From contig NZ_VFOF01000001.1 of the NCBI RefSeq assembly GCF_006715975.1, positions 1,250,001 to 1,314,000 on the forward strand: DNA of 64,000 nucleotides, written 5' to 3'. Origin of the DNA: Zymomonas mobilis (lineage in GTDB: Bacteria; Pseudomonadota; Alphaproteobacteria; Sphingomonadales; Sphingomonadaceae). The notes below the pieces were generated by a model. That model was not told where the DNA came from. It made no database searches and saw nothing but the letters and a program-made list of their open reading frames with translations. A program made the position numbers and the translations under genes. This document shows, in pieces, positions 22,182-43,630 of the stretch. The stretch's first letter is position 1; each line of letters opens with the position of its first letter.

Positions 22182-23429
22182 TTGGCGAGAAAGGACTGCG
22201 TTATTAAATCTGTTCCTGTTTACCTGTCCGGATTATCTCTTCTGGCTCTGTTCATTATCGCTGTCAGCCATGTGTCTGTCGGCTGGCCTATCCTGTCGGT
22301 TTTAATGCTTATTATTGTCTGGGGTTGGTGGTTTAAAAATATCTCTGAAGCCACAGCGCCTTTTTCCGACACCAATAACGGAAGCGGCTTTTCAGATCAG
22401 CCTTACCCCTATTTTCCAGCTACGGCGGCTGATGTCATTATGGCGATGGATGAACCTGTATTGCTGGTCAATGATGGGCAGGTTGAAGTCGCCAACAGAG
22501 CCGCCGAGAATTTATTAGGCATGCATATTGAGGGCGGTGATGTCAGAATGGCTATCCGCCATCCGGCGGCTATTCGCCTTTTAACAGAGCCCTTGGATAA
22601 TATGTCTCCAGTCTTACTGGCTGGATTAGGTGGTCTCAATCGCCGTTGGGAATTATATGCCTATGCCTTGAATGAAGAGCAGCGACTTATTCTGTTACGG
22701 GATCAAAGCACGGCTCATTTAACGGAACAGGTCAGAATAGATTTTGTCGCCAATACCAGCCATGAATTGCGGACACCACTTGCGACTTTAAGCGGTTTTA
22801 TCGAAACATTAGAAGATGACGACGTCATCAAAGATCGGGATACCCGTCACCATTTTCTCGGCATTATGGCGCGTGAAGCCAAACGGATGCAAAATCTGGT
22901 TGATGACCTGATGTCTCTTTCACGGATTGAAGCAGGAAAATTTTCTCTACCCAATGAAATCGTTGTTTTATCGCCTTTGGTAGCAGAAATTGTGTCCAAT
23001 ATTCAGGCATCGGGTCAGGCAAAGCCGTCCCAAATCACCCTAAAAAATCAATTATCGAGCGATAACATCCAAGGCGATCGCACCGAAGTGACGCAGCTTC
23101 TTTACAACATCATCGGAAATGCCTTGAAATATGGTCGGAAGGATGGCCAGATTATGGTTAATCTCGAAAATACCGACGACCATCGGATAAAGCTGTCTAT
23201 TAAAGACGAAGGCGACGGCATTCCTTTTCATCATATTCCGCGTCTGACAGAGCGTTTTTATCGGGTGGATAACAGTCGCAGCCGTGCTTTGGGTGGCACA
23301 GGATTGGGATTGGCGATCGTTAAACAAATTGTTGAGCATCATCGCGGTGAATTGGTCATCGATAGTATCGCCGGAAAAGGCACTACGGTGACAGTATTCT
23401 TGCCAACAACGGACTTTTTCCCCGATTAA
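22182..23429 (+). CDS. phoR: Phosphate regulon sensor histidine kinase PhoR
   Basis: Membrane histidine kinase that activates PhoB when phosphate is scarce. Two hydrophobic segments (residues about 12-30 and 35-50) are followed by a PAS-like domain (about 82-180). The dimerisation H-box FVANTSHELRTPL has His194. The ATPase domain shows N-box NIIGNALKYG, G1 DEGDGIP and G2 GGTGLGLAIVKQI. 415 residues. The start is uncertain: the frame opens with TTG at 22182 and no ATG or GTG occurs before the first membrane segment. An AAAGGA at about 22190 would suit a start slightly further in. A candidate Pho box lies just upstream. PhoU and PhoB follow. Confidence 0.9.
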   Translation: MARKDCVIKSVPVYLSGLSLLALFIIAVSHVSVGWPILSVLMLIIVWGWWFKNISEATAPFSDTNNGSGFSDQPYPYFPATAADVIMAMDEPVLLVNDGQVEVANRAAENLLGMHIEGGDVRMAIRHPAAIRLLTEPLDNMSPVLLAGLGGLNRRWELYAYALNEEQRLILLRDQSTAHLTEQVRIDFVANTSHELRTPLATLSGFIETLEDDDVIKDRDTRHHFLGIMAREAKRMQNLVDDLMSLSRIEAGKFSLPNEIVVLSPLVAEIVSNIQASGQAKPSQITLKNQLSSDNIQGDRTEVTQLLYNIIGNALKYGRKDGQIMVNLENTDDHRIKLSIKDEGDGIPFHHIPRLTERFYRVDNSRSRALGGTGLGLAIVKQIVEHHRGELVIDSIAGKGTTVTVFLPTTDFFPD

Positions 23430-23636: not shown

Positions 23637-24350
23637 ATGAAAAAAGCATCGGAAATCGGTCATACTGTAAAAGCTTTTGATGAAGACCTTGGCGGGCTGC
23701 GCGCTCTGATTTGCGAAATGGGGGGCATGACAGAAATCGCGCTGACTTCGACATTGGAAGCCCTGATTCACAGCAACAAAGAGCTGGCTGCCAAGATCGT
23801 CGAAAATGACAAGGAAATCGACGCGCTGGAAATGGAAGCCGAGCGTGTCGCGATGCGCATTATCTCTCTTCGGGCACCTTTGGCCGATGATTTGCGTGAT
23901 GTGATCGCCGCAATGAAAATTTCGGGTATTCTGGAACGTATGGCGGATTATGCAAAGAATATCGCCAAGCGTGTTCCGATATTGCAAAATATGGTCTCGA
24001 TTCATCCGGTGCCGGTTTTGCCCGTCATGGGCGAAATGGTTTCTGAAATGGTGCGCAATGTGCTTGATGCCTATGCAGCCAGAGACCCGAAAAAAGCTTT
24101 TCATGTCGCGGAATATGACATGGAAGTAGATGGATTATATAACAATCTGTTCCGTATTCTTCTGACTTATATGATGGAAGATTCTGGCAGGATCAGCACT
24201 TGTATCCATTTAATGTTTATCGCCAAAAATCTGGAACGCATTGGGGATCATGCCACAAATATTGCGGAAATGGTGTATTTTGCGGCTACCGGCAAGCAAA
24301 TGCCGGAAAGAACGCGTGGTAAAGATTTGCTGGCATCGGAGGATAACTAA
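23637..24350 (+). CDS. phoU: Phosphate signalling protein PhoU
   Basis: Cytosolic all-helical adaptor linking the phosphate transporter state to PhoR. Two tandem three-helix PhoU repeats are visible, each with the E/D-rich metal-binding pattern: VENDKEIDALEMEAERVAMRI in the first and EYDMEVDGLYNNLFRILLTYM, LERIGDHATNIAEMVYF in the second. 237 residues. The ATG has GAGG five bases upstream. It ends in TAATG shared with phoB. In most alphaproteobacteria pstCAB lie directly upstream of phoU; here only a 207-base regulatory gap separates it from phoR. Confidence 0.94.
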   Translation: MKKASEIGHTVKAFDEDLGGLRALICEMGGMTEIALTSTLEALIHSNKELAAKIVENDKEIDALEMEAERVAMRIISLRAPLADDLRDVIAAMKISGILERMADYAKNIAKRVPILQNMVSIHPVPVLPVMGEMVSEMVRNVLDAYAARDPKKAFHVAEYDMEVDGLYNNLFRILLTYMMEDSGRISTCIHLMFIAKNLERIGDHATNIAEMVYFAATGKQMPERTRGKDLLASEDN

Positions 24351-25045
24351 TGGCCGCTTTACGGCTGCTCCTCGTTGAAGATGACGATGCTCTTGCTGAA
24401 TTACTGAAATGGCATTTTAGTAAACAAAATTTTGAAGTTGTTCACACGCGCGACGGAGATGAAGCTCTCTTATTGGCAAGGGAAAATCCACCTGACATCA
24501 TGCTGCTTGATTGGATGGTAGAAGGTACATCCGGTATCGAAGTTTGTCGGCAATTACGGCGCTATCCTGAAACCGCCAATCTGCCGATTATCATGCTGAC
24601 GGCACGTGGTGAAGAAGATGACCGGATCAGGGGGCTTGAAACGGGTGCGGATGATTATGTCACCAAACCCTTTTCGCCTCGTGAATTGGTGGCGAGAGCG
24701 CTGGCGGTATTACGGCGCATTCGCCCAGCTCTCAGCAAAGAGCAGCTCACCTATAACGATATCGAAATGGATTTGGTCAGCCATCGGGTCAAGCGTGCCG
24801 GAACGACGGTATCCATAGGCCCAACAGAATTTCGCCTTTTGCGACATTTGATGGAATATCCAAGACGGGTTTTCTCACGCGAGAAGCTGTTGGATTATAT
24901 TTGGGGTCAGGATAGCGATATCGAATTACGAACCGTCGATGTTCATATTCGTCGCCTTCGGAAAGCCTTGAACCGCGAAGGTTTGCCAGATCTTATCCGT
25001 ACTGTCCGCTCGGCAGGCTATGCGTTAGATACGGACGAAGAATAG
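24350..25045 (+). CDS. phoB: Phosphate regulon response regulator PhoB
   Basis: OmpR/PhoB-family DNA-binding response regulator, 231 residues. The receiver domain has acidic pocket EDDD at 10-13 and phosphoacceptor Asp54 in MLLDWMVEGTSG, then TARGEEDDRIRGLETGADDYVTKPFSPREL with the conserved Lys. The C-terminal winged helix includes IGPTEFRLLRHLMEYPRRVFSREKLLDYIWG and RTVDVHIRRLRKAL. It overlaps phoU by one base. PhoB identity follows from linkage to phoR and phoU and from high sequence likeness, and the nearby Pho boxes are its probable targets. Confidence 0.94.
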   Translation: MAALRLLLVEDDDALAELLKWHFSKQNFEVVHTRDGDEALLLARENPPDIMLLDWMVEGTSGIEVCRQLRRYPETANLPIIMLTARGEEDDRIRGLETGADDYVTKPFSPRELVARALAVLRRIRPALSKEQLTYNDIEMDLVSHRVKRAGTTVSIGPTEFRLLRHLMEYPRRVFSREKLLDYIWGQDSDIELRTVDVHIRRLRKALNREGLPDLIRTVRSAGYALDTDEE

Positions 25046-31968: not shown

Positions 31969-32091
31969 TATATATCCTATTAACATTAAAACCGGCGATG
32001 ATTAAAATTCAGGTCGGGATTTTTTTCGCCAAGCCTTGCTAGACAGAATCTACTTAATGCTTTGTCATTAATAGACCAAAAAGGAAAAAAC

Positions 32092-33366
32092 ATGATTGTT
32101 TCTGAAGCGAATTTTGATGGTTTGATCGGCCCGACCCACAATTATGCGGGGTTATCTTTAGGGAATGTCGCCAGCGCCCTTCATGCCGGTCAAGCGTCTT
32201 ATCCGCGCCAAGCGGCACTTCAGGGACTGCAAAAAATGAAAAGCCTGATGGATATGGGCTTAACCCAAGGAGTGTTTTTGCCGCCGTTACGACCTGTAAC
32301 CGGTTTACTTCATCATATTGGCTACAAAGGTGATGATAAAACCATCCTGACGCAGGCCGCCAAAGATGATCGGCAATTGTTCAACAATCTTTGCTCGGCT
32401 TCTTCTATGTGGGCAGCCAATGCCGCAACCGTTATTGCGGCGCCCGATAGTGATGATGGCCGTGTTCATTTTATAGCGGCTAATCTTGCAACGATGCTGC
32501 ATCGCCATCTGGAAGCGAAAACCACCTATAATCAACTGAACCAGATTTTTTCGAATAGCTGCTTTTTCGCTATTCACCATCCCCTACCTTGTGGCCAGCA
32601 TTTCAGTGATGAAGGTGCCGCCAATCATATGCGGATTACCTCGGCACATTCTAACACCGGCTTGAATATTTTTGTTTATGGCGAAAAAAATGACGTTTTT
32701 CCGGCAAGACAAAAATTACGCGCAAGTCAGGCTGTTGCCCGATTGGGTGAAGTAAAGTCAGATCAGACATGGTTTATTCCACAGAATAAAGAAGCCATTG
32801 CCAAAGGCGCTTTTCATAATGACGTGGTCGCGGTTGCGAATGAATATGTCTTGTTGGCACATGCCGAGGCTTTTGAGAATCAAGGCGAGTGGATCGACCG
32901 CATTTCTCAAAAAATTGATGGCTTCATCCCTGTTATTATTGATGACATCACGCTCGAACAGGCCGTTAAAAGCTATTTATTCAACAGCCAGCTCGTCACT
33001 TTAAAAGACCGCACAATGGCACTTATTCTGCCTCGGGAAGTAAAAAATGATCCGGCTGTCTGGGAAACCGTAAACCGCATTATCGGTGGCAACAATCCAA
33101 TCAATAAAGCAGTCGTGGTTGATGTGCGTGAAAGCATGTCCAATGGCGGCGGCCCAGCTTGTTTGCGATTGCGCGTGCCTTTATCAAAAAGCGCATTGGC
33201 TGCTGTTGACCAGCGTTACATCCTTAATAATGAAAGATGGGAAAAGCTTTGCGAGCTGGTCGAAAACTTCTGGCCTGAAAAAATTACACCTGATGATCTC
33301 GTTGCGCCTGAATTATGGAAAAGCGCGGTCAGAGCACATTGGGCTCTGACCAGCTGGTTGGGCTAA
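32092..33366 (+). CDS. astB: N-succinylarginine dihydrolase AstB
   Basis: Pentein-fold hydrolase of the arginine succinyltransferase (AST) catabolic pathway; it turns N2-succinylarginine into succinylornithine, two ammonia and CO2. FDGLIGPTHNYAGLSLGN at residues 7-24, FNNLCSASSMWAANAATV, the catalytic HSNTGLN region and the C-terminal SMSNGGGPACLRLRVPL with the nucleophilic cysteine are present. Start at ATG 32092 (AAAAGG upstream), 424 residues; the longer frame begins with TTG. No other ast genes (astA, C, D, E) are in the window, so the pathway is either dispersed or incomplete. Its stop overlaps the tamB stop tail to tail by four bases. Confidence 0.92.
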   Translation: MIVSEANFDGLIGPTHNYAGLSLGNVASALHAGQASYPRQAALQGLQKMKSLMDMGLTQGVFLPPLRPVTGLLHHIGYKGDDKTILTQAAKDDRQLFNNLCSASSMWAANAATVIAAPDSDDGRVHFIAANLATMLHRHLEAKTTYNQLNQIFSNSCFFAIHHPLPCGQHFSDEGAANHMRITSAHSNTGLNIFVYGEKNDVFPARQKLRASQAVARLGEVKSDQTWFIPQNKEAIAKGAFHNDVVAVANEYVLLAHAEAFENQGEWIDRISQKIDGFIPVIIDDITLEQAVKSYLFNSQLVTLKDRTMALILPREVKNDPAVWETVNRIIGGNNPINKAVVVDVRESMSNGGGPACLRLRVPLSKSALAAVDQRYILNNERWEKLCELVENFWPEKITPDDLVAPELWKSAVRAHWALTSWLG

Positions 33367-36300
33367 TAATCCTTGGAATAACGCAGGCTGACATTGGATG
33401 ACCCGAAACTGCTCGCTTCACTCAGGAGCGACAGGGTTCGGGTCAAAGATATTCTAATCTGGGTCGCCGTAAAGCCATGCGTATCGGTGATGACTTCCAT
33501 ATAAACATTTTTGAAAAGATATTTCCCAGCGGCCAAGGATGTTCCTTGGCCAGTCGAACTATTCGCCCCAACCACTCGTAAACGATCAATGCCGATCACC
33601 GAACGAAGCTTATCGAGTGGATCAAAGCCTTTGCCTCCTGTGCGAAGCGTATTCAACGCTGCCGCCAATTGTACTGCCTGCACTGCAGACAAGCTCGTCA
33701 CCGAAGAACCGAAAAGCAAGCGTGACAGGATTTCATCCTGTGCCAAAGAGGGCGACGAAGAAAAGGTGATTTCCGGTCTATTCGCAAAGCCGCCGATTTT
33801 CACCGTAGCTGTGATATCGTCAACCGTGGCTTCGGCAGTAATATCCAATGCCGGATTGGGAGGATTCCCGCCGGTAAACTGAATTTCACCATGATCTATA
33901 TCGAAACGCCGTCCGGCAAAGGTATAGGTTCCCCGAATGACCCGCATGTCACCCGTAATATTGGGGGATGTTGCCGTGCCTCTGACCCGCAAATCGGCTT
34001 GCCATTCGGATTCCAGCCCCATACCAGCAACAAATAACTGTTCAGGGGCGCTGATGCGAATATCCAGCTTCCATGCAGAGGCCAACATCGGCGGTGAATT
34101 GGTCGCCTCATTAGAAGCCGCGGTTTCAACCGCGCCTTTCCGCTTCACACCAGATAAATCATGAACGCTTTCTTTGTTATCAAGGATAAAGCGATAACGG
34201 GTTTCAGGCAGATTTAATTTCCCCTTGATAGAGCCACCTTCTTTGGCATTACTCTTAATATCAAGGTTACCCGAAACTGTTGACTTCATCTGATCCGCAC
34301 GGGCAAGTGTGGCTTTATCCAAGGTGATATTCAAAGTTGAATCATAATCACTGGCCGCATCAAGGCTGGCATAGCCTTTGGCTGAAACAGTACCTTTTCC
34401 GGCCTTCCCTGTCATTTTATCAAGGAAGAATTTTGACTGATCGAAATGGCCGTCAATATCAATAGAGGATACCAAGGTATCGTAGGCGCTGTTTTCATAA
34501 CGAAGCGAACGACCACGGATTAACCCTGTTAAAACAGGTGCATCGAGTTCACCGGTAATATCGGCGGCAACGGCCAAAGGCCCTCTTATCGATTGACCAC
34601 TGACACCACTCATCGACCATAAAATATCGGCATCAGCGTTATAACGGATACCGCCGCTTAAACGCCCCTTCAAAAGGGCATCTATCCAATCGGGTTTGTG
34701 CTGTTTTTCTGGAGCATAATTCGGCGTTATACCTAAACGCATTTGCCCGATCATGGCTTGATTTTGGCGAATAACGGCTTCTGAAACTAAACCGTTTTTG
34801 TCATGGGTTGCCACCATCATCAAATCAACCGGTTGAGACAATCCGGTAATCGAAGCCCGTGTAAAATGGTTCAAGGCTAAACGCGCAGAAATCAACGGCA
34901 CATTACCCGTTAAATCAGCATTGGCAATCGCTGACAGCTGACCACTTAAATTAGTCTCAGGCCATAAAAGATTGGCTTCCGATAAATCAATATCGGCGAT
35001 CTGCATCGCGGCATAACTATTTTGACCACCATAATGGCCGGATAAATCAATATGGCCTTTGGGAAGCTGGATAACCACTTTCGATATATCATAGCCGTTT
35101 TTATCCGAGCGAATTTCGACGGGCGCTGCCATATGCCAATTTAAATGGGCGACGTTACCTTGGGCATTCGCCCGCACCAGATTTTCATCAAAACTGCTAT
35201 GCAAAGCAACATTAAATGGAATGGGTGTCGTACCACCCACCGGTAAATTGCCTTGCAGGGTAAGGCCGGCTTCACCTTGATTTTTTTGATAAAGAACGCG
35301 ACCAGCGGTTTGCTTCAATAAAAAATTATTATAGCGAATATTGTTGAGTAAAGCTTCGCCTTGGAAAACTGGATTGGCAGAAAAGACCGCCTTTCCTCTT
35401 AACCGACCGCTTTCGATATCAATGGCTTGACCATAGGTAAAACGGGCTTTCTCTAGGGTAATGTCGGCATTGACCGCCTGATTGGCCTGATCTTCTGTTA
35501 AGCGGATAACACCGTCTAATCCGCGACCATTCAGCTCGAATTGCCCCATATATAGGCTATTCTTCGTCTGAGCCAGATTACCGTTAATCGTCACGCCCAA
35601 AAGATTGGCCTTGATTAACGGATGGGTAAGGATACCTCCGACATCAAGGGTCATAGCACCATAGGTTTTTGAATTACCCCGAACAAACAGGCTAATATTG
35701 CCCTTTGGTTGATAGGCACCATTTCCATCCAGATGAAATTCCGGTGAAACAAGGCTAAATCTTGGCATTCTTATGCCACCAACGGCATTGGCAATGACAT
35801 CTGCCCGTAAAACGGCTTCGCCACCAAAGGCTTTCTTTAATGCTGGTTTCTGCCAGTCACGCCCCGTCAAAGTCATTTGACCGGCCATGCCAAATTCACC
35901 GTTTTTCTCCGGTTGAAGGTGGCTGTCTATCGCCAAACTCAAGCGACCAACGCCATCTACTTTATAGGAATCAATGCCGCCTTTAATTGCCGCCCGCCAT
36001 TTTTTGCTAACAAAGTCAGTAATGACTGTCGTATTCGCATGGATATAACGGCTGCTGATATTGCTATGGTCGATCCGTAAAATATGGTCGCCATAATTGA
36101 TGGCACCTTCGACTTTTAAATTTTCCAGCAGATTGACCAGACGGGGGTCAAGGCCGGTGATTTTTCCGACGGACAAGCCCATAGGCATCGATAAACGGCT
36201 ATCGTCTATCAACATTTTGCCTCTGGCTTGAATATTTTCTACCATTTTACCTTGCCAGCCAATCTGGCCAGCATTTAAGCGCCAATCAATAGTCGGAGAT

Positions 36301-37556
36301 CGGATAAGGCCTGAAAGAACCGAAGAAAAAGCGAATTTTTTTAAGGATAAATCATCCAAAAAGAAATTCCGACCATTCGGGATATCCAGATTGACGCTCA
36401 TATTATTGAAGCGGCTCGTTTTCCAATCAATACCGCCCAAAGCCGTAAACTGGAACATCTCTCCAGAAACCGCACTACGAATATCTACAATATTTTTGTT
36501 GCTATGAGTGGTCAGATCAACCTGTAAGCCTTTTTTGAAAAAGGCTTGTATCGAAGCCGGCTGATCAGCCAATAATTCGGCGGGATAAACCGCACCAGCA
36601 AGATGAACAGCACCATTTCTGTTATGAAGTTGCCAGTCTAACAGTTTTTTATCGCCTGATTGTGCCTGAATATAACCGCGCCAATCCTGCCAATTTCCTT
36701 TTCCGGCGGCATCCATAATCAGCGGCTTACCCAAATGGGTCAGCCCATCAACAACCCCTCCAACGGGCGCATTTAAATGCGCATCTACAACCAAAAGATT
36801 GGCAGCAGGCTTGGCATCAAATTGTAAAGATAGGGTATCTCCACCACTAATGCCCTGCCCTTTATCCGCGCCAGCATTGGCTTTGACCGTAATTTGCCCC
36901 CGTATCAAAGCCAGCCGTCCATGCATGTGCAAACGGTGGTTTTGCCCATCCAGATTTTTTGAAATATCAATTCGGTCTAAATCAATCCGGTCGATATCCA
37001 GATGGATATTCGGCAAAAGAGGTGCGTTCGGATCTGATTTTGTCGGCTTCATTTCCGGATTACGGAGCAATCCGACCATCGGCGCATGAAGCGTCTTTAT
37101 CGTAATAATGCCGTAGCGATAATCCAGCGGATGCCATTCTACGAAAAGCGATGGCATATCAAGAAAACGGCCATGCTGGTCATAGGCTTTAACATCAATC
37201 AAGCGGAATGCCTGATAAATAGACCCATCAATCCGTTTTAATTTAACTTTTAGACCAGACTCTGTTGTATATTTATTGATATAATGAACAATGATCCGAT
37301 GCCCGACGGCCGTATCCAAAAATACGACTAAAGACGCTACCACCAGCGCCAATCCCGCAAGGCAAACGCTGCCCCACCCCAAAATAGATTTCAAATTCCG
37401 AAGGGGTGAAAGTGAATTATCAGAAAGGGCGGACTCTTCGGCCTCTTCAATATTAGCCTTAGTTTCCGTTTCTTGTAACTGTGCGGCGGCATCCGGATTC
37501 TGTACATTATTAGAATCCGAATTCGGTTTTTCTGAATTGTTATCCTGATCAGCCAT
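33363..37556 (-). CDS. tamB: Translocation and assembly module inner-membrane subunit TamB (DUF490/AsmA-like)
   Basis: Very large protein that spans the periplasm from the inner membrane to TamA and is implicated in outer-membrane protein insertion and phospholipid transport. An acidic cytosolic N-terminus of about 55 residues (Asn/Asp/Glu-rich) precedes one membrane helix (residues about 62-84). About 1,200 residues of repeated beta-strand, groove-forming sequence follow, and the diagnostic C-terminal DUF490 domain (GDMRVIRGTYTFAGRRFDIDHGEIQFTGG onward to the end). 1,397 residues from ATG 37556; the frame can be read one codon further from TTG. The start shares one base with the tamA stop (TGATG). 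Convergent overlap with astB at the 3' end. Confidence 0.9.
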   Translation of the reverse strand: MADQDNNSEKPNSDSNNVQNPDAAAQLQETETKANIEEAEESALSDNSLSPLRNLKSILGWGSVCLAGLALVVASLVVFLDTAVGHRIIVHYINKYTTESGLKVKLKRIDGSIYQAFRLIDVKAYDQHGRFLDMPSLFVEWHPLDYRYGIITIKTLHAPMVGLLRNPEMKPTKSDPNAPLLPNIHLDIDRIDLDRIDISKNLDGQNHRLHMHGRLALIRGQITVKANAGADKGQGISGGDTLSLQFDAKPAANLLVVDAHLNAPVGGVVDGLTHLGKPLIMDAAGKGNWQDWRGYIQAQSGDKKLLDWQLHNRNGAVHLAGAVYPAELLADQPASIQAFFKKGLQVDLTTHSNKNIVDIRSAVSGEMFQFTALGGIDWKTSRFNNMSVNLDIPNGRNFFLDDLSLKKFAFSSVLSGLIRSPTIDWRLNAGQIGWQGKMVENIQARGKMLIDDSRLSMPMGLSVGKITGLDPRLVNLLENLKVEGAINYGDHILRIDHSNISSRYIHANTTVITDFVSKKWRAAIKGGIDSYKVDGVGRLSLAIDSHLQPEKNGEFGMAGQMTLTGRDWQKPALKKAFGGEAVLRADVIANAVGGIRMPRFSLVSPEFHLDGNGAYQPKGNISLFVRGNSKTYGAMTLDVGGILTHPLIKANLLGVTINGNLAQTKNSLYMGQFELNGRGLDGVIRLTEDQANQAVNADITLEKARFTYGQAIDIESGRLRGKAVFSANPVFQGEALLNNIRYNNFLLKQTAGRVLYQKNQGEAGLTLQGNLPVGGTTPIPFNVALHSSFDENLVRANAQGNVAHLNWHMAAPVEIRSDKNGYDISKVVIQLPKGHIDLSGHYGGQNSYAAMQIADIDLSEANLLWPETNLSGQLSAIANADLTGNVPLISARLALNHFTRASITGLSQPVDLMMVATHDKNGLVSEAVIRQNQAMIGQMRLGITPNYAPEKQHKPDWIDALLKGRLSGGIRYNADADILWSMSGVSGQSIRGPLAVAADITGELDAPVLTGLIRGRSLRYENSAYDTLVSSIDIDGHFDQSKFFLDKMTGKAGKGTVSAKGYASLDAASDYDSTLNITLDKATLARADQMKSTVSGNLDIKSNAKEGGSIKGKLNLPETRYRFILDNKESVHDLSGVKRKGAVETAASNEATNSPPMLASAWKLDIRISAPEQLFVAGMGLESEWQADLRVRGTATSPNITGDMRVIRGTYTFAGRRFDIDHGEIQFTGGNPPNPALDITAEATVDDITATVKIGGFANRPEITFSSSPSLAQDEILSRLLFGSSVTSLSAVQAVQLAAALNTLRTGGKGFDPLDKLRSVIGIDRLRVVGANSSTGQGTSLAAGKYLFKNVYMEVITDTHGFTATQIRISLTRTLSLLSEASSFGSSNVSLRYSKDY

Positions 37557-39826
37557 CAAAAAGCCTGACCAATAGAAATATAGACCGAAATACGCGATTC
37601 TCCGGATTGCCGAGCGATAGGTGTTGCAAGATCAAGGCGGAAAGGGCCAAATGCGGTATAGTAACGCGCGCCTAAACCTGTGCCAAATCTTAAATTATGG
37701 AAGGTTGGAAGCGAATCTTGATAGACTTGCCCAGCATCAATAAAAGGCACCAACCCAAAATTACCGAAACGATACCGCACTTCAAAAGCCAGTTCTTCTT
37801 CCGACAGGCCTCCAACGGCATCTTTATAGGGATCCTTTGGCCCTAATTGCTGATAGCCATACCCACGAACAGAGCCGCCGCCACCGGCATAAATCCGGCG
37901 AGAAGGCGCCAATTGCTGAACCGAAGCCCCTTCGATTGAGGCTACCCTAACACGACCAGCTACAACCACATTATCCGCAACCGGATAATAGCCACTCGCG
38001 TCAAAAAGCATTCTGACATAGCCGCGCAGCCCAGAACCAATTGAAGTTTCAGGACTGATACGCATATTCAAGCGGTAACCTTTGGTTGGATTCATCAGAT
38101 TATTTGAACGGTCATACCCCACTTGCCCTGGCAAGGCCGCGATCAAATAGGAACGCGTTAGCCTTTCAGCACGGGAAAAGTCATAGCTCCGTTCGTTGGT
38201 CTGCGTTAATTCCGCTCCAATAGAATAAGTCCAGCGCTTTTGCCATAACTGGGTGGATTGCCGCGACAAGCTCCCCCCCAAAGAAAAACTGTAACCATTA
38301 TAGGCATCATATCTTTCACGGCCAGCCGTCAATCCAATTTGGATAACGCGATCTCGTTGTCCAGCATTATTGCGATTAAATAAAGCCGAAACCTGTTGTT
38401 GACGCGTTCCAATAATACCAGAGAAAGTCAAAGAACCTTCTGGCGGGAACCGATTACGACTAATCCAGCTTCCCTGCGCTTTGAAACCTTCGCCCGTACC
38501 ATAGCCGCCGGTAACTGAAATACTATGCTTTTTTCCCTGACCTTGACGGACATTAAGATCAACAATTTCGCTACCATCCTCCCGTTTTCGCCCCGTAGCG
38601 ACAGGTTCAACTGACACATGAGAAAAAAGGCTTGTTGCAGCTAAAGCCTCGCGCAGATCATCAACCATCCGGCTGTCATAGCGCTGGCCTTCTTTGAAGC
38701 GCGCGATATGCGAGATGTGTTCAGCACCAAGGATAATATGCTTATTATTGCTGACGATAATTGAACCGTAAGAACCAATGGGGCCGGCATCAACGGGCAA
38801 TGTATAATCGCCAGTATGCGTTTCATCATCCAACAGAATATTGCGATCATCAATTTTGGCAAAGGGATAGCCATAATGCGGCAAAGTTGTCAGAATATTA
38901 TTCTCGGCCTGTTCTATGTTGAGAGCAATAATCGGCTGACCTGAATGTAAATTTAAAGCGACTTTTGCTATATTGAGAGGAATTTCGCTACTACCCGTCA
39001 GATTTATCTGACCAAGGCAATATATTGTCCCCGCATTGACATCATAGCGGACATTATACTGCCCTTTTTCTATGGGCGTAATAGAAAGCGCGGCTTTCCC
39101 ATCATAATAGCCTTGAGACCGTAGAATACGGCCAATCAATTCCTGATCATTAGTCGCTCTGGCACCAATAACGGACAAACTATCGGCTTTATTTTTGCTC
39201 GATAGTAACACAGAATAATTTTTGAAAGCTTGATCGACATCAATGTCATTAAGCCCTTTGACATCGACTTTATAGCGAAGATCATCCTTTTCTTTTGCAA
39301 GGACGACATGCTCATTCATATCCGGCATAAAATGGGTAAGATCAGGCAAGGGTTCGGATAATACCGGATCAAGAGGCACAGATGTAATCGGTACCTGTTC
39401 TTTTACAGGATTTCCTGCCTTTTTATTATCAGTCGGAATGTCTTTCCGAGCCGGAGCGGGCTGCCCTGCAATATCCGTTTTTTCAGATGGTGTTACGCTA
39501 TCCTTAGCCACCGTCTTTTCTGTATCGGGCGCTACGGGTTGTTCTATTTTATCTAAACGAACAGCCGTATTTCCAGCTTTAGCTGCGTTCAGATTATTCT
39601 GAATTTCTGCTTTAGGCGCTTCTATGGCGGGTTGTGACAAAGTGGGTAATTTGTCAAAAAAAGACGGATCAAAAGGGTCATTAAGATTATTCGGCGCAGC
39701 CGGTTTAATATCTGGATCTTTACTGGTTGCAGATAATTCTTCAGCGCAGGCTGAAAAGGATATCAACCCGACAGAGATTAAACATATTCGATGTATCGAC
39801 CGACACAGATTGCTTTTAGAGGGCAT
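37556..39826 (-). CDS. tamA: Translocation and assembly module outer-membrane subunit TamA (Omp85 family)
   Basis: Omp85 protein partnering TamB. N-terminal hydrophobic segment (residues 11-27, ICLISVGLISFSAC) is a signal peptide; the Cys after SA could be a lipidation site, though its -3 residue is unusual. A Pro/Lys/Asp-rich linker to about residue 165 follows, then POTRA domains (VDVKGLNDIDVDQAFKNYS onward). The barrel carries the Omp85 motif YAGGGGSVRGYGYQQLGP and a C-terminal strand RISVYISIGQAF. 756 residues, longer than usual because of the linker. ATG overlaps the stop of the kinase gene (TAATG) and its stop overlaps the tamB start, so the whole unit is translationally coupled. Confidence 0.9.
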   Translation of the reverse strand: MPSKSNLCRSIHRICLISVGLISFSACAEELSATSKDPDIKPAAPNNLNDPFDPSFFDKLPTLSQPAIEAPKAEIQNNLNAAKAGNTAVRLDKIEQPVAPDTEKTVAKDSVTPSEKTDIAGQPAPARKDIPTDNKKAGNPVKEQVPITSVPLDPVLSEPLPDLTHFMPDMNEHVVLAKEKDDLRYKVDVKGLNDIDVDQAFKNYSVLLSSKNKADSLSVIGARATNDQELIGRILRSQGYYDGKAALSITPIEKGQYNVRYDVNAGTIYCLGQINLTGSSEIPLNIAKVALNLHSGQPIIALNIEQAENNILTTLPHYGYPFAKIDDRNILLDDETHTGDYTLPVDAGPIGSYGSIIVSNNKHIILGAEHISHIARFKEGQRYDSRMVDDLREALAATSLFSHVSVEPVATGRKREDGSEIVDLNVRQGQGKKHSISVTGGYGTGEGFKAQGSWISRNRFPPEGSLTFSGIIGTRQQQVSALFNRNNAGQRDRVIQIGLTAGRERYDAYNGYSFSLGGSLSRQSTQLWQKRWTYSIGAELTQTNERSYDFSRAERLTRSYLIAALPGQVGYDRSNNLMNPTKGYRLNMRISPETSIGSGLRGYVRMLFDASGYYPVADNVVVAGRVRVASIEGASVQQLAPSRRIYAGGGGSVRGYGYQQLGPKDPYKDAVGGLSEEELAFEVRYRFGNFGLVPFIDAGQVYQDSLPTFHNLRFGTGLGARYYTAFGPFRLDLATPIARQSGESRISVYISIGQAF

Positions 39827-41244
39827 TATTTTGGCCGACGAAGCAGTTCCAATCCTTTGCGTGCTGAAAAATAATAACCTTTTCCCCCATCATTTTTTGC
39901 ATTTTTACTTTGCGTTGCTGGCAAAAATATTTCTGCCCGTAAACCACCTTCTGGACGATTGGTCAGAAAAAGATTGCCCCCTTCTCTTTTTACCGTCCGT
40001 TCAACAGTCGCCAACCCCAACCCTAGACCCGCAGTATTGCGTTGGCGGGCTGTATCCAACCGTCGGAAAGGTTGCAAGACATGTTCTATCTGATCTTCTG
40101 GAATACCGGGGCCCATATCGTCAACACGGATATAGACACCCTTTTCGTCATGATGGAAGCTTACAATCGCCGTTTCCCCATAATGAAGAGCATTTTCGAT
40201 CAGATTGCTGATGGCACGCTTCATTAACAACGGGCGGGTCATAACATCATAGTGAGATGGCCCTTTATAAGAAATATTTTTACCGGCATCTTTAGCCGCA
40301 TTCACCAAAGTTTCGATAATAGCGACAATATCCGTCAAGCGCGTTACTTCAGGGTCTTGATCACCACGCAAAAACTGAAGAACAGATTTGATCATCATCG
40401 CCATCTCTTGAAGATCCGCCTCCAATGGCTCGCGGATTTCGTCTTCCTCAATGAAACTGGCTCTTAACTGTAAACGGGCAAGCGGCGTTCTTAAATCATG
40501 GCTAACAGCCGCTAACATCTCTGTTCTTTCGCGCAGCATATGGTCAATGCGCATCTGCATCTGGTTAAAGGCCTGCGCGACATGCCGTAATTCTTTTGGG
40601 CCCGTTTCATTGAACAGATGCTGTTTACCATCTCCAACCTTGGCAACGGCCTTCGACAAGGAACGTAACGGCGTTACAAATGCCTGTATAATCAAGCTAC
40701 CAACCAACCCTGCCCCAATCATAAGAATAAGGGCAGTTGTCAGACGATTAGTTAACCAGGGCATTGCCGGATTAGGCACTAATGTCTGGAAAATTAACCA
40801 GCTTCCATCCGATAATTTTAACTGCCCCAATAAATGATCCCGTCCCAATTTAGGCGCGAGATCTATATGAATGTCAGACGGGGATATCTCTGGATCATGG
40901 CTTAATATTTGCCCTTGGATCAGGTCAATCAGATGGCTGTCACTGTTAACATGGACATGTTTTACCTGACTGGGCGCCCAGAAAAACCGAATATCTCGAT
41001 TGGAAAAATTATTGGCCACCATCCGGCGGCGCGCTGGTTTATCTTGATTGATTACTTGTCTCGCAACAAGAACGCGCTCGGTAATCGATTGGGTTGCATC
41101 CGCAACATAGGTGAGCTGGCTTGCCTCTTCTGAAAAGACAAGGCTAAGCACCAGCTCCAACAACATTGTTGCCAGAAGAACAATCGCAATCCTTCCGGCT
41201 AAGCCCGGGGAAAGCTGCCTGAAGAGATTATGAGACCACTTCAA
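39826..41244 (-). CDS. EnvZ-type sensor histidine kinase coupled to the TAM genes
   Basis: Membrane histidine kinase of 472 residues. First membrane segment at about 16-37, a periplasmic sensor region of about 130 residues, and a second segment at about 168-190. A HAMP linker (TPLRSLSKAVAKVGDG) leads into the H-box AAVSHDLRTPLARL with His249. N-box NLIENALHYG, G1 DDMGPGIP and G2 TAGLGLGLATVERTV complete the ATPase. The SHDLRTPL form places it with EnvZ. It overlaps the response-regulator stop by four bases and shares a base with tamA. The stimulus is unknown; location suggests monitoring of outer-membrane biogenesis, which is inference. No symbol is given because orthology to envZ is not shown. 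Confidence 0.88.
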   Translation of the reverse strand: MKWSHNLFRQLSPGLAGRIAIVLLATMLLELVLSLVFSEEASQLTYVADATQSITERVLVARQVINQDKPARRRMVANNFSNRDIRFFWAPSQVKHVHVNSDSHLIDLIQGQILSHDPEISPSDIHIDLAPKLGRDHLLGQLKLSDGSWLIFQTLVPNPAMPWLTNRLTTALILMIGAGLVGSLIIQAFVTPLRSLSKAVAKVGDGKQHLFNETGPKELRHVAQAFNQMQMRIDHMLRERTEMLAAVSHDLRTPLARLQLRASFIEEDEIREPLEADLQEMAMMIKSVLQFLRGDQDPEVTRLTDIVAIIETLVNAAKDAGKNISYKGPSHYDVMTRPLLMKRAISNLIENALHYGETAIVSFHHDEKGVYIRVDDMGPGIPEDQIEHVLQPFRRLDTARQRNTAGLGLGLATVERTVKREGGNLFLTNRPEGGLRAEIFLPATQSKNAKNDGGKGYYFSARKGLELLRRPK

Positions 41245-41966
41245 TCCTGTGAAACCGGCACCGTAAACATATACCCCACCCCACGGATAGTGCGGATCAT
41301 GTCACCGGCTCCCGTCTGACTGGATAATTTTCGGCGTAATCGGCTGACCAGAACATCAATACTTCGATCCGATGCCTCGCTTAACCGACTACGTGATAAT
41401 TCCAGCAATCTTTCACGCCCGATGACGCGTTGGGCATGTTGCGAAAAGGATAAAAGTAAATCAAATTCAGCGCCGGATAATTCAACCCCCGCGCCGGTAG
41501 GCGAATGGAGTTCGCGCCGATCAGGGTCAATAATCCAGCCTTCAAAATGAATCAGATGGCTTTGGGGGCTTTCTTCTGCACCTTTGATGGCCTGACTGCG
41601 CCTTAAAACAGCGCGAACCCTCGCGACCAATTCTTTCTTACCAAAGGGTTTCGGGATGTAATCATCCCCGCCCAATTCCAATCCAACGACACGATCCGTT
41701 TCGTCATCACGGGCGCTTAGAAAGATGACAGGCGTTGCCATATAATGGCTATTGCTGCGCAATTCACGGGTTAAATCCAACCCGTTTTTGCCCGGCAGCA
41801 TGACATCCATCAAAATAAGATCGACTGTCCTGCCTTGCAGCTCTTCCCACATCTCTTCACCGCAACCAACCGGACAAGGTATGTAGCCATTCTCTTTCAG
41901 CACGCGAGCAATTAATGCCCGTAAAGAAGCATCGTCTTCGACGATCATAATCGTCTGGCTTGCCAT
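41241..41966 (-). CDS. OmpR-type response regulator coupled to the TAM genes
   Basis: OmpR/PhoB-family regulator, 241 residues. Receiver domain: acidic EDD at 10-12, phosphoacceptor Asp54 in LILMDVMLPGKNGLDL, then SARDDETDRVVGLELGGDDYIPKPFGKKELVARVRAVLRR. The winged-helix output follows (VELSGAEFDLLLSFSQHAQRVIGRERLLELSR; RSIDVLVSRLRRKL; RTIRGVGYMF). The last four bases overlap the kinase start, so the two form a standard pair. It begins 26 bases after hisI on the same strand, so hisI may be co-transcribed. Target genes are unknown; the downstream tamA/tamB are obvious candidates by linkage only. Confidence 0.9.
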   Translation of the reverse strand: MASQTIMIVEDDASLRALIARVLKENGYIPCPVGCGEEMWEELQGRTVDLILMDVMLPGKNGLDLTRELRSNSHYMATPVIFLSARDDETDRVVGLELGGDDYIPKPFGKKELVARVRAVLRRSQAIKGAEESPQSHLIHFEGWIIDPDRRELHSPTGAGVELSGAEFDLLLSFSQHAQRVIGRERLLELSRSRLSEASDRSIDVLVSRLRRKLSSQTGAGDMIRTIRGVGYMFTVPVSQD

Positions 41967-41992: not shown

Positions 41993-42367
41993 TTATAATT
42001 GATCTTTTGATACAGGCACCAAATGGTCACCTTCGACCAATCGGTAAAAACAGCTTTGGGCACCGGTATGGCAGGCAGGGCCCATGGGATTCACCTTTAA
42101 CCAGACAGTGTCTTGGTCACAATCAATCCGCATTTCCTGTATTTTCATAACGTGACCAGATTCTTCACCCTTGCGCCACAGTTTTTTACGGGAACGAGAC
42201 CAAAAATGGGCTTCTTTAGTTGCAATGCTCAGCTCGAAAGATTCTTTGTTCATATGGGCAACCATTAACAAAAGACCGGTTTTAGCATCGCTCAAAACCG
42301 CGTTAATAAGTCCTTTTTCGTCCCATGCAGGATTTAATATATTCCCGCGATCCCGATCACCATGCAT
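41993..42367 (-). CDS. hisI: Phosphoribosyl-AMP cyclohydrolase HisI
   Basis: Third step of histidine synthesis: zinc-dependent ring opening of phosphoribosyl-AMP. The protein (124 residues) has the conserved MVAHMNKESFELSIATKEAHFWSRSRKKLWRKGEESG. The metal-binding CDQDTVWLKV and ACHTGAQSCFYR supply the zinc cysteines and the aspartates. It lacks the C-terminal HisE domain that is fused in enterobacteria. It stands apart from other his genes, between an RNA methyltransferase and the TAM-linked regulator. Confidence 0.95.
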   Translation of the reverse strand: MHGDRDRGNILNPAWDEKGLINAVLSDAKTGLLLMVAHMNKESFELSIATKEAHFWSRSRKKLWRKGEESGHVMKIQEMRIDCDQDTVWLKVNPMGPACHTGAQSCFYRLVEGDHLVPVSKDQL

Positions 42368-42436
42368 TGCCGTTGTGCCTTTTATTTTTGTTGCAAGAGA
42401 AAGTAGAAGAATTGAGATAAAATTATAAGATAGATT

Positions 42437-43630
42437 TTACTTTTTTGTAAAAAGACCAACCATCTCGACATGTAAAGACCATGGGAATTGCCCAATTGGC
42501 TTCACCCAATCCAAACTCCATCCAGCATCCATCAGATTTTTAGCATCGCGGGCAAAGGTTGCCGGATTACAAGAAACATAGACAATTCGCCCATGCGGTA
42601 ACGGTGCCAGATTGACTATCTGTTCTTTGGCACCGGCACGCGGCGGATCAAGAATGATGCAGTCAAAGCGTGCCAGTTCGTTTTTCTGTAAAGGACGCCG
42701 AAACAAGTCACGATGTTCAACAAAAATGGCTTTTCCAGCTTGACCAGCAGCCTGTTTCAAAGCCAACACTGCATCGCGCATCCCTTCGGCGGCATACACA
42801 CGGCTGTTTTTATCTAAGGAAAGGGCAAAAGTCCCTAAGCCAGAAAAAAGATCGGCGACAAGGCGACTATCGCCGACGGCCTCTCTGACAGTCTGGACTA
42901 GCGCTTGCTCACCATCTTTGGTTGCCTGTAAAAACGCATGCGAAGGCAATGCAACCGGAACATCGCCTAATGTGACAGTAACCCGTTCTGATTCCCAACG
43001 GGTTTCGGCACCATAACCCTGATCTATTGAAAGACGAGCAAAAGCTTTCTCAGAGGCAAAAGCTGTAACCGCCTCGGTTGCCTCCAAATTTTCTGGAAAC
43101 GGCATCACCAATAAACAGTCAATGCCTTGATCTGCCAAGGTCATTTCAATTTGCGCTAACGAACGCGGTGCCAGCCATTTTTGCAAAAAGCTGCGTAAAT
43201 CTTTAACCGCTTTAAACAGACTTTCTTCCAACAAAGGACATTCCGCAATATCCACTAATTGATGACTGGATGTCTTGTTATAGCCCAAAGTCAACTTTTT
43301 GCCGGCTTTGAAAGCTCGCAAAGCCACACGGCGGCGGCTATGCGGCGGAGAAAGATGCGCCTCTTTTAAATCAGGGGCGGATAACCCTTGCTGGTGAAAG
43401 GCTTCTGCGATCCGATCCGTCATAAATTTTTTGTAAACGACTTCATCAGCATATTGTAACTGACAGCCACCACAGATTGAAAAATGGCGACAAACGGGAT
43501 CAATATGGTGAGCACCAAATTTGATCGCACCTTCATCCGTAACAGAATCCCCAGGCACAGAATTGGGCACAAATTGCCCTTCTGCCGTTACCCCGTCACC
43601 TTTAGCGGCTAATCTCACAATTTCATTCAT
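42437..43630 (-). CDS. Class I SAM-dependent RNA (uracil-C5) methyltransferase, RlmD/TrmA family
   Basis: Methylates a uracil C5 in rRNA or tRNA. A short N-terminal TRAM-like beta barrel spans residues 1-30. Iron-sulfur cluster cysteines are visible as CRHFSICGGCQLQ near 47-60 plus AECPLLEE. The SAM-binding motif is VADLFSGLGTFAL, and DPPRAGAK is followed by the catalytic VYVSCNPATFARD with the nucleophilic cysteine. 397 residues. It overlaps the nnr gene by four bases (ATGA-type). Which position it modifies (rRNA U1939, U747 or another) cannot be decided by eye. Confidence 0.88.
   Translation of the reverse strand: MNEIVRLAAKGDGVTAEGQFVPNSVPGDSVTDEGAIKFGAHHIDPVCRHFSICGGCQLQYADEVVYKKFMTDRIAEAFHQQGLSAPDLKEAHLSPPHSRRRVALRAFKAGKKLTLGYNKTSSHQLVDIAECPLLEESLFKAVKDLRSFLQKWLAPRSLAQIEMTLADQGIDCLLVMPFPENLEATEAVTAFASEKAFARLSIDQGYGAETRWESERVTVTLGDVPVALPSHAFLQATKDGEQALVQTVREAVGDSRLVADLFSGLGTFALSLDKNSRVYAAEGMRDAVLALKQAAGQAGKAIFVEHRDLFRRPLQKNELARFDCIILDPPRAGAKEQIVNLAPLPHGRIVYVSCNPATFARDAKNLMDAGWSLDWVKPIGQFPWSLHVEMVGLFTKK

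Follow-up and report, generated by a model that had tools for sequence, protein, structure and literature searches.

The 64-kb stretch of Zymomonas mobilis DNA analysed here (the window, from a genome of 2.1 Mb) carries a two-component system directly upstream of tamA and tamB, the genes of the translocation and assembly module (TAM). The system comprises a response regulator (RR) and a sensor histidine kinase (HK). The RR-HK-tamAB arrangement is real and is found only in the genus Zymomonas; in other sphingomonads the orthologous RR-HK pair is linked to genes for a SulP transporter and a beta-carbonic anhydrase (CA), often also to a Gcw_chp porin gene, and a shared DNA motif lies upstream of CA. 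The best explanation, which we hold with a confidence slightly above even, is a genus-specific operon formed by rearrangement, in which a two-component system of the CA/SulP type, without its former partners, came to be placed ahead of tamAB in the ancestor of Zymomonas. What is new is this proposed relocation, together with the candidate CA/SulP regulon, and not a lineage-wide regulator dedicated to TAM.

The arrangement within and outside Zymomonas

The genes for RR, HK, TamA and TamB follow one another on the minus strand, overlapping by 4, 1 and 1 bases in turn, and a gap of 26 bases separates the RR gene from hisI upstream. An earlier note on this DNA had described this order, in a sphingomonad setting, and the window coordinates, the Pfam domains and the identity of the organism bear it out. 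The note also called the unit "translationally fused"; the contiguity stands but "fused" overstates it, and "translationally coupled" is the better description. Overlaps of 1-4 bases occur in 11/38 same-strand neighbouring open reading frame pairs in the window, as judged by crude calling of reading frames, so three in a row are unremarkable. The junctions themselves and the end of the HK say more. The tamA gene has no obvious Shine-Dalgarno sequence and its start lies inside the HK stop codon (TAATG) in 4/4 Zymomonas genomes, while the tamB ATG overlaps the tamA stop by one base (TGATG). The natural reading of these junctions is that RR, HK, tamA and tamB would be translationally coupled. The HK ends in a tail, GGKGYYFSARKGLELLRRPK, that is found only in Zymomonas and terminates at the tamA start. 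The linker preceding it is variable, and the tail is absent from the sphingomonad HK orthologues compared; it is possibly the scar of a rearrangement.

Both the order nnr-rumA-hisI-RR-HK-tamA and the overlaps are kept in 4/4 Zymomonas genomes examined (in the draft genome G198, tamB runs off the contig). The RR is 91-95% identical within the genus, with a dN/dS of ~0.01 relative to the L067 locus. As synonymous divergence is near saturation at this low dN/dS, the proteins of the unit are under strong constraint.

Outside the genus, an OmpR/EnvZ-type pair lies directly upstream of tamA at 0/85 loci (46 in Sphingomonadales, 39 elsewhere in Alphaproteobacteria). A search of genome contigs with the HK as query returned one locus, from a Zymomonas metagenome-assembled genome. 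The earlier note had proposed a dedicated envelope-sensing TAM circuit as a trait of the lineage and a survey of tamAB neighbourhoods across Sphingomonadales as a check; that survey, run here, finds the linkage in no relative outside Zymomonas and argues against the proposal. Three settings with signalling genes near tamA were considered and set aside. In L123/L124 the gene near tamA encodes a CpdR-like single-domain regulator, not an OmpR/EnvZ-type pair, and in L179 a kinase ~2 kb upstream is a different kind of gene. A different signalling setting is that of L161 (G027:C1:3246100-3254297), from another family of Sphingomonadales, where the genes directly preceding tamA encode a large kinase, a receiver and a REC-GGDEF-EAL protein, again of other kinds.

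The unit may begin upstream of the RR, at hisI or earlier; nnr and rumA, upstream of hisI, overlap too. A candidate promoter upstream of hisI, whose −35 element overlaps the end of rumA, is weakly indicated as a possible start of a hisI-RR-HK-tamA-tamB unit. L067 and L069 carry a similar sequence, TTTACA-N18-TATGAT, which L068 lacks, and promoter-like sites in the region number 20 against 19.8 expected from shuffled DNA.

The orthologous pair and a DNA motif in other sphingomonads

Sphingomonad orthologues are 48-58% identical for the RR and, across almost the entire protein, 32-43% identical for the HK. We followed orthologous RR-HK pairs in 82 loci of other genera (21 in a first sample and 61 from other genomes in a second) and found tamA at 0/82; the flanks reached only 1.5 kb in 21 RR-HK loci, where linkage counts are lower bounds and the tamA check covers the neighbouring gene only. 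CA or SulP is present at 62/82 loci. In the first sample CA was found at 15/21 loci and SulP alone at one more; the second sample gave CA at 46/61 and SulP at 38/61, with a Gcw_chp porin gene at some; most CA loci of the two samples also carry SulP. A tree of RR sequences places the Zymomonas RRs within a clade of 24 rows, most of them CA-linked (support 97/89). The position of the Zymomonas RR thus agrees with membership in the CA/SulP-linked systems, whereas linked CA and SulP genes are missing; the Zymomonas CA and SulP are located elsewhere in the genome and share 26-33% identity with the linked ones.

The recurrent module, RR-HK with beta-CA and SulP and often the Gcw_chp porin, is seen in sphingomonads at L070-L077, L202-L218 and L259-L319, and no description or name for this pair was found in the literature searched. 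It resembles the Zymomonas locus in its RR-HK order and in its closely spaced or overlapping genes. The Zymomonas locus differs in that CA, SulP and porin are absent and tamAB comes next instead, in the lack of the motif described below and in the extra C-terminal tail of the HK.

A matrix for this motif was learned from four RR upstream regions, which share an 18-bp site near GTRACAAAATATTGCTGG. In the first sample, in DNA outside the training set, the best site before CA is on the opposite strand at a distance of 70-106 bp in 15/15 cases, and 12/15 of these upstream regions are individually significant at p < 0.05 by shuffling. The motif also lies 126-146 bp upstream of Gcw_chp in 6/8 cases, again individually significant. 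The second sample repeats the pattern: at 45/45 loci the best match is on the opposite strand, 60-107 bp ahead of the CA start. Column-permuted matrices scored by the same rule at these 45 loci reached 9.6 on average and 32 at most. Upstream of the RR genes of the second sample, 17/61 regions reach a score of at least 14 on the same strand. Because part of the RR promoters carry the motif, we infer that the RR itself binds it. A candidate regulon of CA, SulP and porin genes with its own DNA motif is thus defined across sphingomonads as a by-product of this work.

The motif is not a feature of tamA, being found at p < 0.05 upstream of 1/46 tamA genes in relatives. In Zymomonas, none of the regions preceding nnr, hisI, RR and tamA contains it; the earlier note had suggested looking for binding by the regulator upstream of 41966 or 42367, and the motif scan saw no site at either. 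The GTRACRAANTRTTKCYG motif is thus missing from the Zymomonas RR promoter, and it is also absent from most other RR promoters, hence it is not strictly defining. A search of four Zymomonas genomes that allowed one mismatch gave 8-12 motif sites per genome, no excess over the reversed control. One weak motif-like site (G000:C1:473678; L234:1501) lies in an AT-rich gap between a rodA-like gene and uvrB, and occurs also in G196 and G198. It was rejected as a candidate, with a low motif score and, downstream, a 330-residue protein with a barrel-like C-terminus lacking a Pfam hit.

Kinase, regulator and TAM proteins

The HK was described in the earlier note as EnvZ-like, with a periplasmic region of roughly 130 residues, and both points hold. 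Both sequence and fold put its cytoplasmic core in the EnvZ/CpxA class, the closest solved sequences being the EnvZ and CpxA cores; the catalytic residues H249, N347, D376, G408 and G410 are invariant, and the periplasmic region has ~126 residues. An AlphaFold2 model of this sensor, of fair confidence (mean pLDDT 83.5), has the extracytoplasmic domains of WalK and RisS as its nearest solved domains (Z about 8), and a Foldseek search gave no significant hit (best E 0.045). The sensor is predicted from the model to have a PAS/Cache-like fold, which does not indicate a ligand. It is the least conserved part of the protein, 21-27% identical to orthologues (mean 23%) versus 44-48% for the kinase core, reflecting either a changed signal or low constraint. 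In the RR, the recognition-helix stretch DRSIDVLVSRLRRKL is identical to that in many relatives.

The pair shares with the E. coli EnvZ/OmpR and CpxA/CpxR systems the HAMP-HisKA-HATPase plan, a periplasmic sensor and an OmpR-type winged-helix RR, and these are the best PDB matches of the HK core. Their gene setting is different, and the NCBIfam equivalog cut-offs are missed (EnvZ 213.7/415, OmpR 196.4/331 and CpxA 174/486 bits, and the other listed equivalogs too). A heat-tolerance mutation, M99I, in Z. mobilis CP4 ZCP4_0028 (PMC11989028) affects another kinase, as residue 99 is V here and ZCP4_0028 lies far from the position expected from kup. The window holds a second kinase (22182-23429) and an OmpR-type regulator (24350-25045) on the plus strand, with a PhoR/PhoB-like look and a resemblance to the RR-HK pair at family level only.

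TamA is of the TamA1 type of sphingomonads, with orthologues 45-50% identical and a long proline-rich N-terminal linker. The assignment to TAM rests on the PF04357 domain of TamB and on a TamA with POTRA and Omp85 domains adjoining tamB with a 1-base overlap, an overlap seen in sphingomonads too. The NCBIfam models are matched below cut-off (ATportTamA 157.7/625 and ATportTamB 135/825 bits), marking the proteins as homologous to, not equivalogs of, the enterobacterial ones; the BamA model also stays below its cut-off (168.7/297 bits). The locus differs from the known TAM in the long N-terminal linker, in the two-component pair preceding tamA and in a second tamAB pair in the genome. This second pair (L085; G000:C1:about 602700-608700) encodes a TamA ~41% identical to that of the window; a second tamB is present in 4/4 Zymomonas genomes, and two tamA genes occur in many sphingomonads.

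The importance that the earlier note ascribed to TAM for the envelope agrees with published work in Z. mobilis TISTR 548, where a Tn10 insertion in the tamB gene ZZ6_0158 causes heat sensitivity and tamB is listed as required for ethanol tolerance (PMC5571576). The distance to kup (ZZ6_0125; PMC7136397) makes ZZ6_0158 very probably the window-type tamB, since 42-44 kb separate kup from that gene in three genomes, whereas the second tamB is far away from kup. The second pair is apparently not redundant with the window-type pair, since losing ZZ6_0158 is enough to give a phenotype (PMC5571576).

There are already reports of TAM under the control of two-component systems not linked to its genes. 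In Brucella, phosphorylated BvrR binds the region upstream of tamA (ChIP-seq and electrophoretic mobility shift assay; PMC9491525), and in Salmonella PhoPQ regulates TamAB according to the title of Ramezanifard 2023, cited in PMC11825808. Unlike the Zymomonas RR-HK, neither BvrR/BvrS (ChvI/ChvG) nor PhoP/PhoQ is described as linked to tamAB in the literature found, which for PhoP/PhoQ is a cited title.

Features of the locus, in window coordinates
Feature	Position	Strand	Basis
hisI, phosphoribosyl-AMP cyclohydrolase	41993..42367	−	PF01502; NCBIfam PRK00051 over cut-off
RR, OmpR-family response regulator, 241 aa	41241..41966	−	Response_reg PF00072 and Trans_reg_C PF00486
HK, EnvZ/CpxA-class sensor histidine kinase, 472 aa, TTG start	39826..41244	−	HAMP, HisKA, HATPase_c
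Predicted periplasmic sensor region of HK, about residues 36-168	40741..41139	−	AlphaFold2 model
tamA, Omp85 PF01103 with POTRA PF07244	37556..39826	−	Pfam
tamB, ATG at 37556	33363..37556	−	PF04357, 270.3 bits vs cut-off 22.4
TTGA overlap, RR stop / HK TTG start	41241..41244	−	Sequence; TTG after RR in 4/4 Zymomonas genomes
TAATG junction of HK and tamA	39826..39828	−	Identical in 4/4 Zymomonas genomes
HK C-terminal 20-residue tail	39829..39888	−	Conserved in four Zymomonas genomes
Candidate promoter TTTACA-N18-TATAAT upstream of hisI	42422..42451	−	Consensus scan, 11/12

At the far end of the unit the plus-strand gene astB (32062-33366) converges on tamB with a 4-base overlap at 33363-33366, as it does in L067 and L068.

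Origin and possible consequences of the arrangement

Under the relocation that we favour, the RR of relatives would probably bind the promoters of CA, porin and often the RR itself within the CA/SulP/porin module. In the Zymomonas ancestor the partners would have been lost or replaced and the RR-HK pair would have come to adjoin tamAB on its upstream side, with tamAB losing its own leader. Transcription would now enter from upstream, probably from a hisI or nnr promoter; ribosomes finishing RR would re-start at HK, and those finishing HK at tamA (TAATG) and then tamB (TGATG), so that TAM would be made in proportion to HK translation. The targets of the RR in Zymomonas would lie elsewhere.

Several points weigh against this account. 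The innermost node placing Zymomonas among the CA-linked RRs is weak (89/52), and the CA loci share descent, so that the 45/45 matches are not independent trials. Binding of the motif by the RR, and not by another regulator, is suggested by its presence at many RR promoters, but only 17/61 RR upstream regions of the second sample score highly. With DRSIDVLVSRLRRKL unchanged, the RR would be expected to recognise the motif still, and the lack of motif enrichment in the four Zymomonas genomes is unexplained. Retention of the linkage throughout the genus is weak evidence of function, because the genes flanking the unit are equally syntenic.

That equal synteny also fits a plain juxtaposition, in which genome reduction and rearrangement brought the genes together, an internal promoter drives TAM and their closeness has no regulatory meaning. 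Short overlaps are common enough in the window to allow it, and promoter-like sites do occur inside the unit, though not above chance. We think it improbable, since no ribosome-binding site is visible before tamA, whose start falls within the HK stop codon in four species, and the HK has gained a conserved tail ending exactly at the tamA start. The same conserved, coupled operon could alternatively mean that the pair is now a dedicated TAM regulator, with the phosphorylated RR acting on the operon promoter and an envelope or fermentation signal raising TamA and TamB. The BvrR-tamA and PhoPQ-TamAB cases, the latter known to us from its cited title, are precedents, and tamB, assigned to this locus by its distance to kup, is needed for heat and ethanol tolerance. 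The motif at part of the relatives' RR promoters suggests autoregulation, which would carry tamAB along, and divergence concentrated in the sensor is what a changed signal would predict. Yet in Zymomonas no ancestral motif precedes nnr, hisI, RR or tamA, which speaks against the ancestral mode of RR autoregulation there; the linkage does not extend outside the genus, the tamA genes of relatives are without the motif, and the present data contain no sign of an envelope signal. With the orthologous pair keeping company with CA, SulP and porin genes and with a motif not found at tamAB, we regard a dedicated regulator, as the earlier note envisaged, as rather unlikely.

Relocation of a CA/SulP-type system, our preferred explanation, admits a bolder version. 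That the pair has to do with CO2 or pH is a guess based on its partner genes in relatives; if it held, a CO2/bicarbonate (or pH) system might have been rewired to set the level of TAM, reading fermentation load in the periplasm and answering it by outer-membrane repair. We consider this very doubtful. If true, it would tie CO2-related sensing to an envelope machine in an organism whose fermentation gives off one CO2 for each ethanol. The TamB of Zymomonas, an ethanologen used in industry, is already reported to be needed for heat and ethanol tolerance, and a relocation at the level of the genus, for which the ancestral partners are known, offers a natural case in which to ask whether operon capture rewires the output of a regulator.

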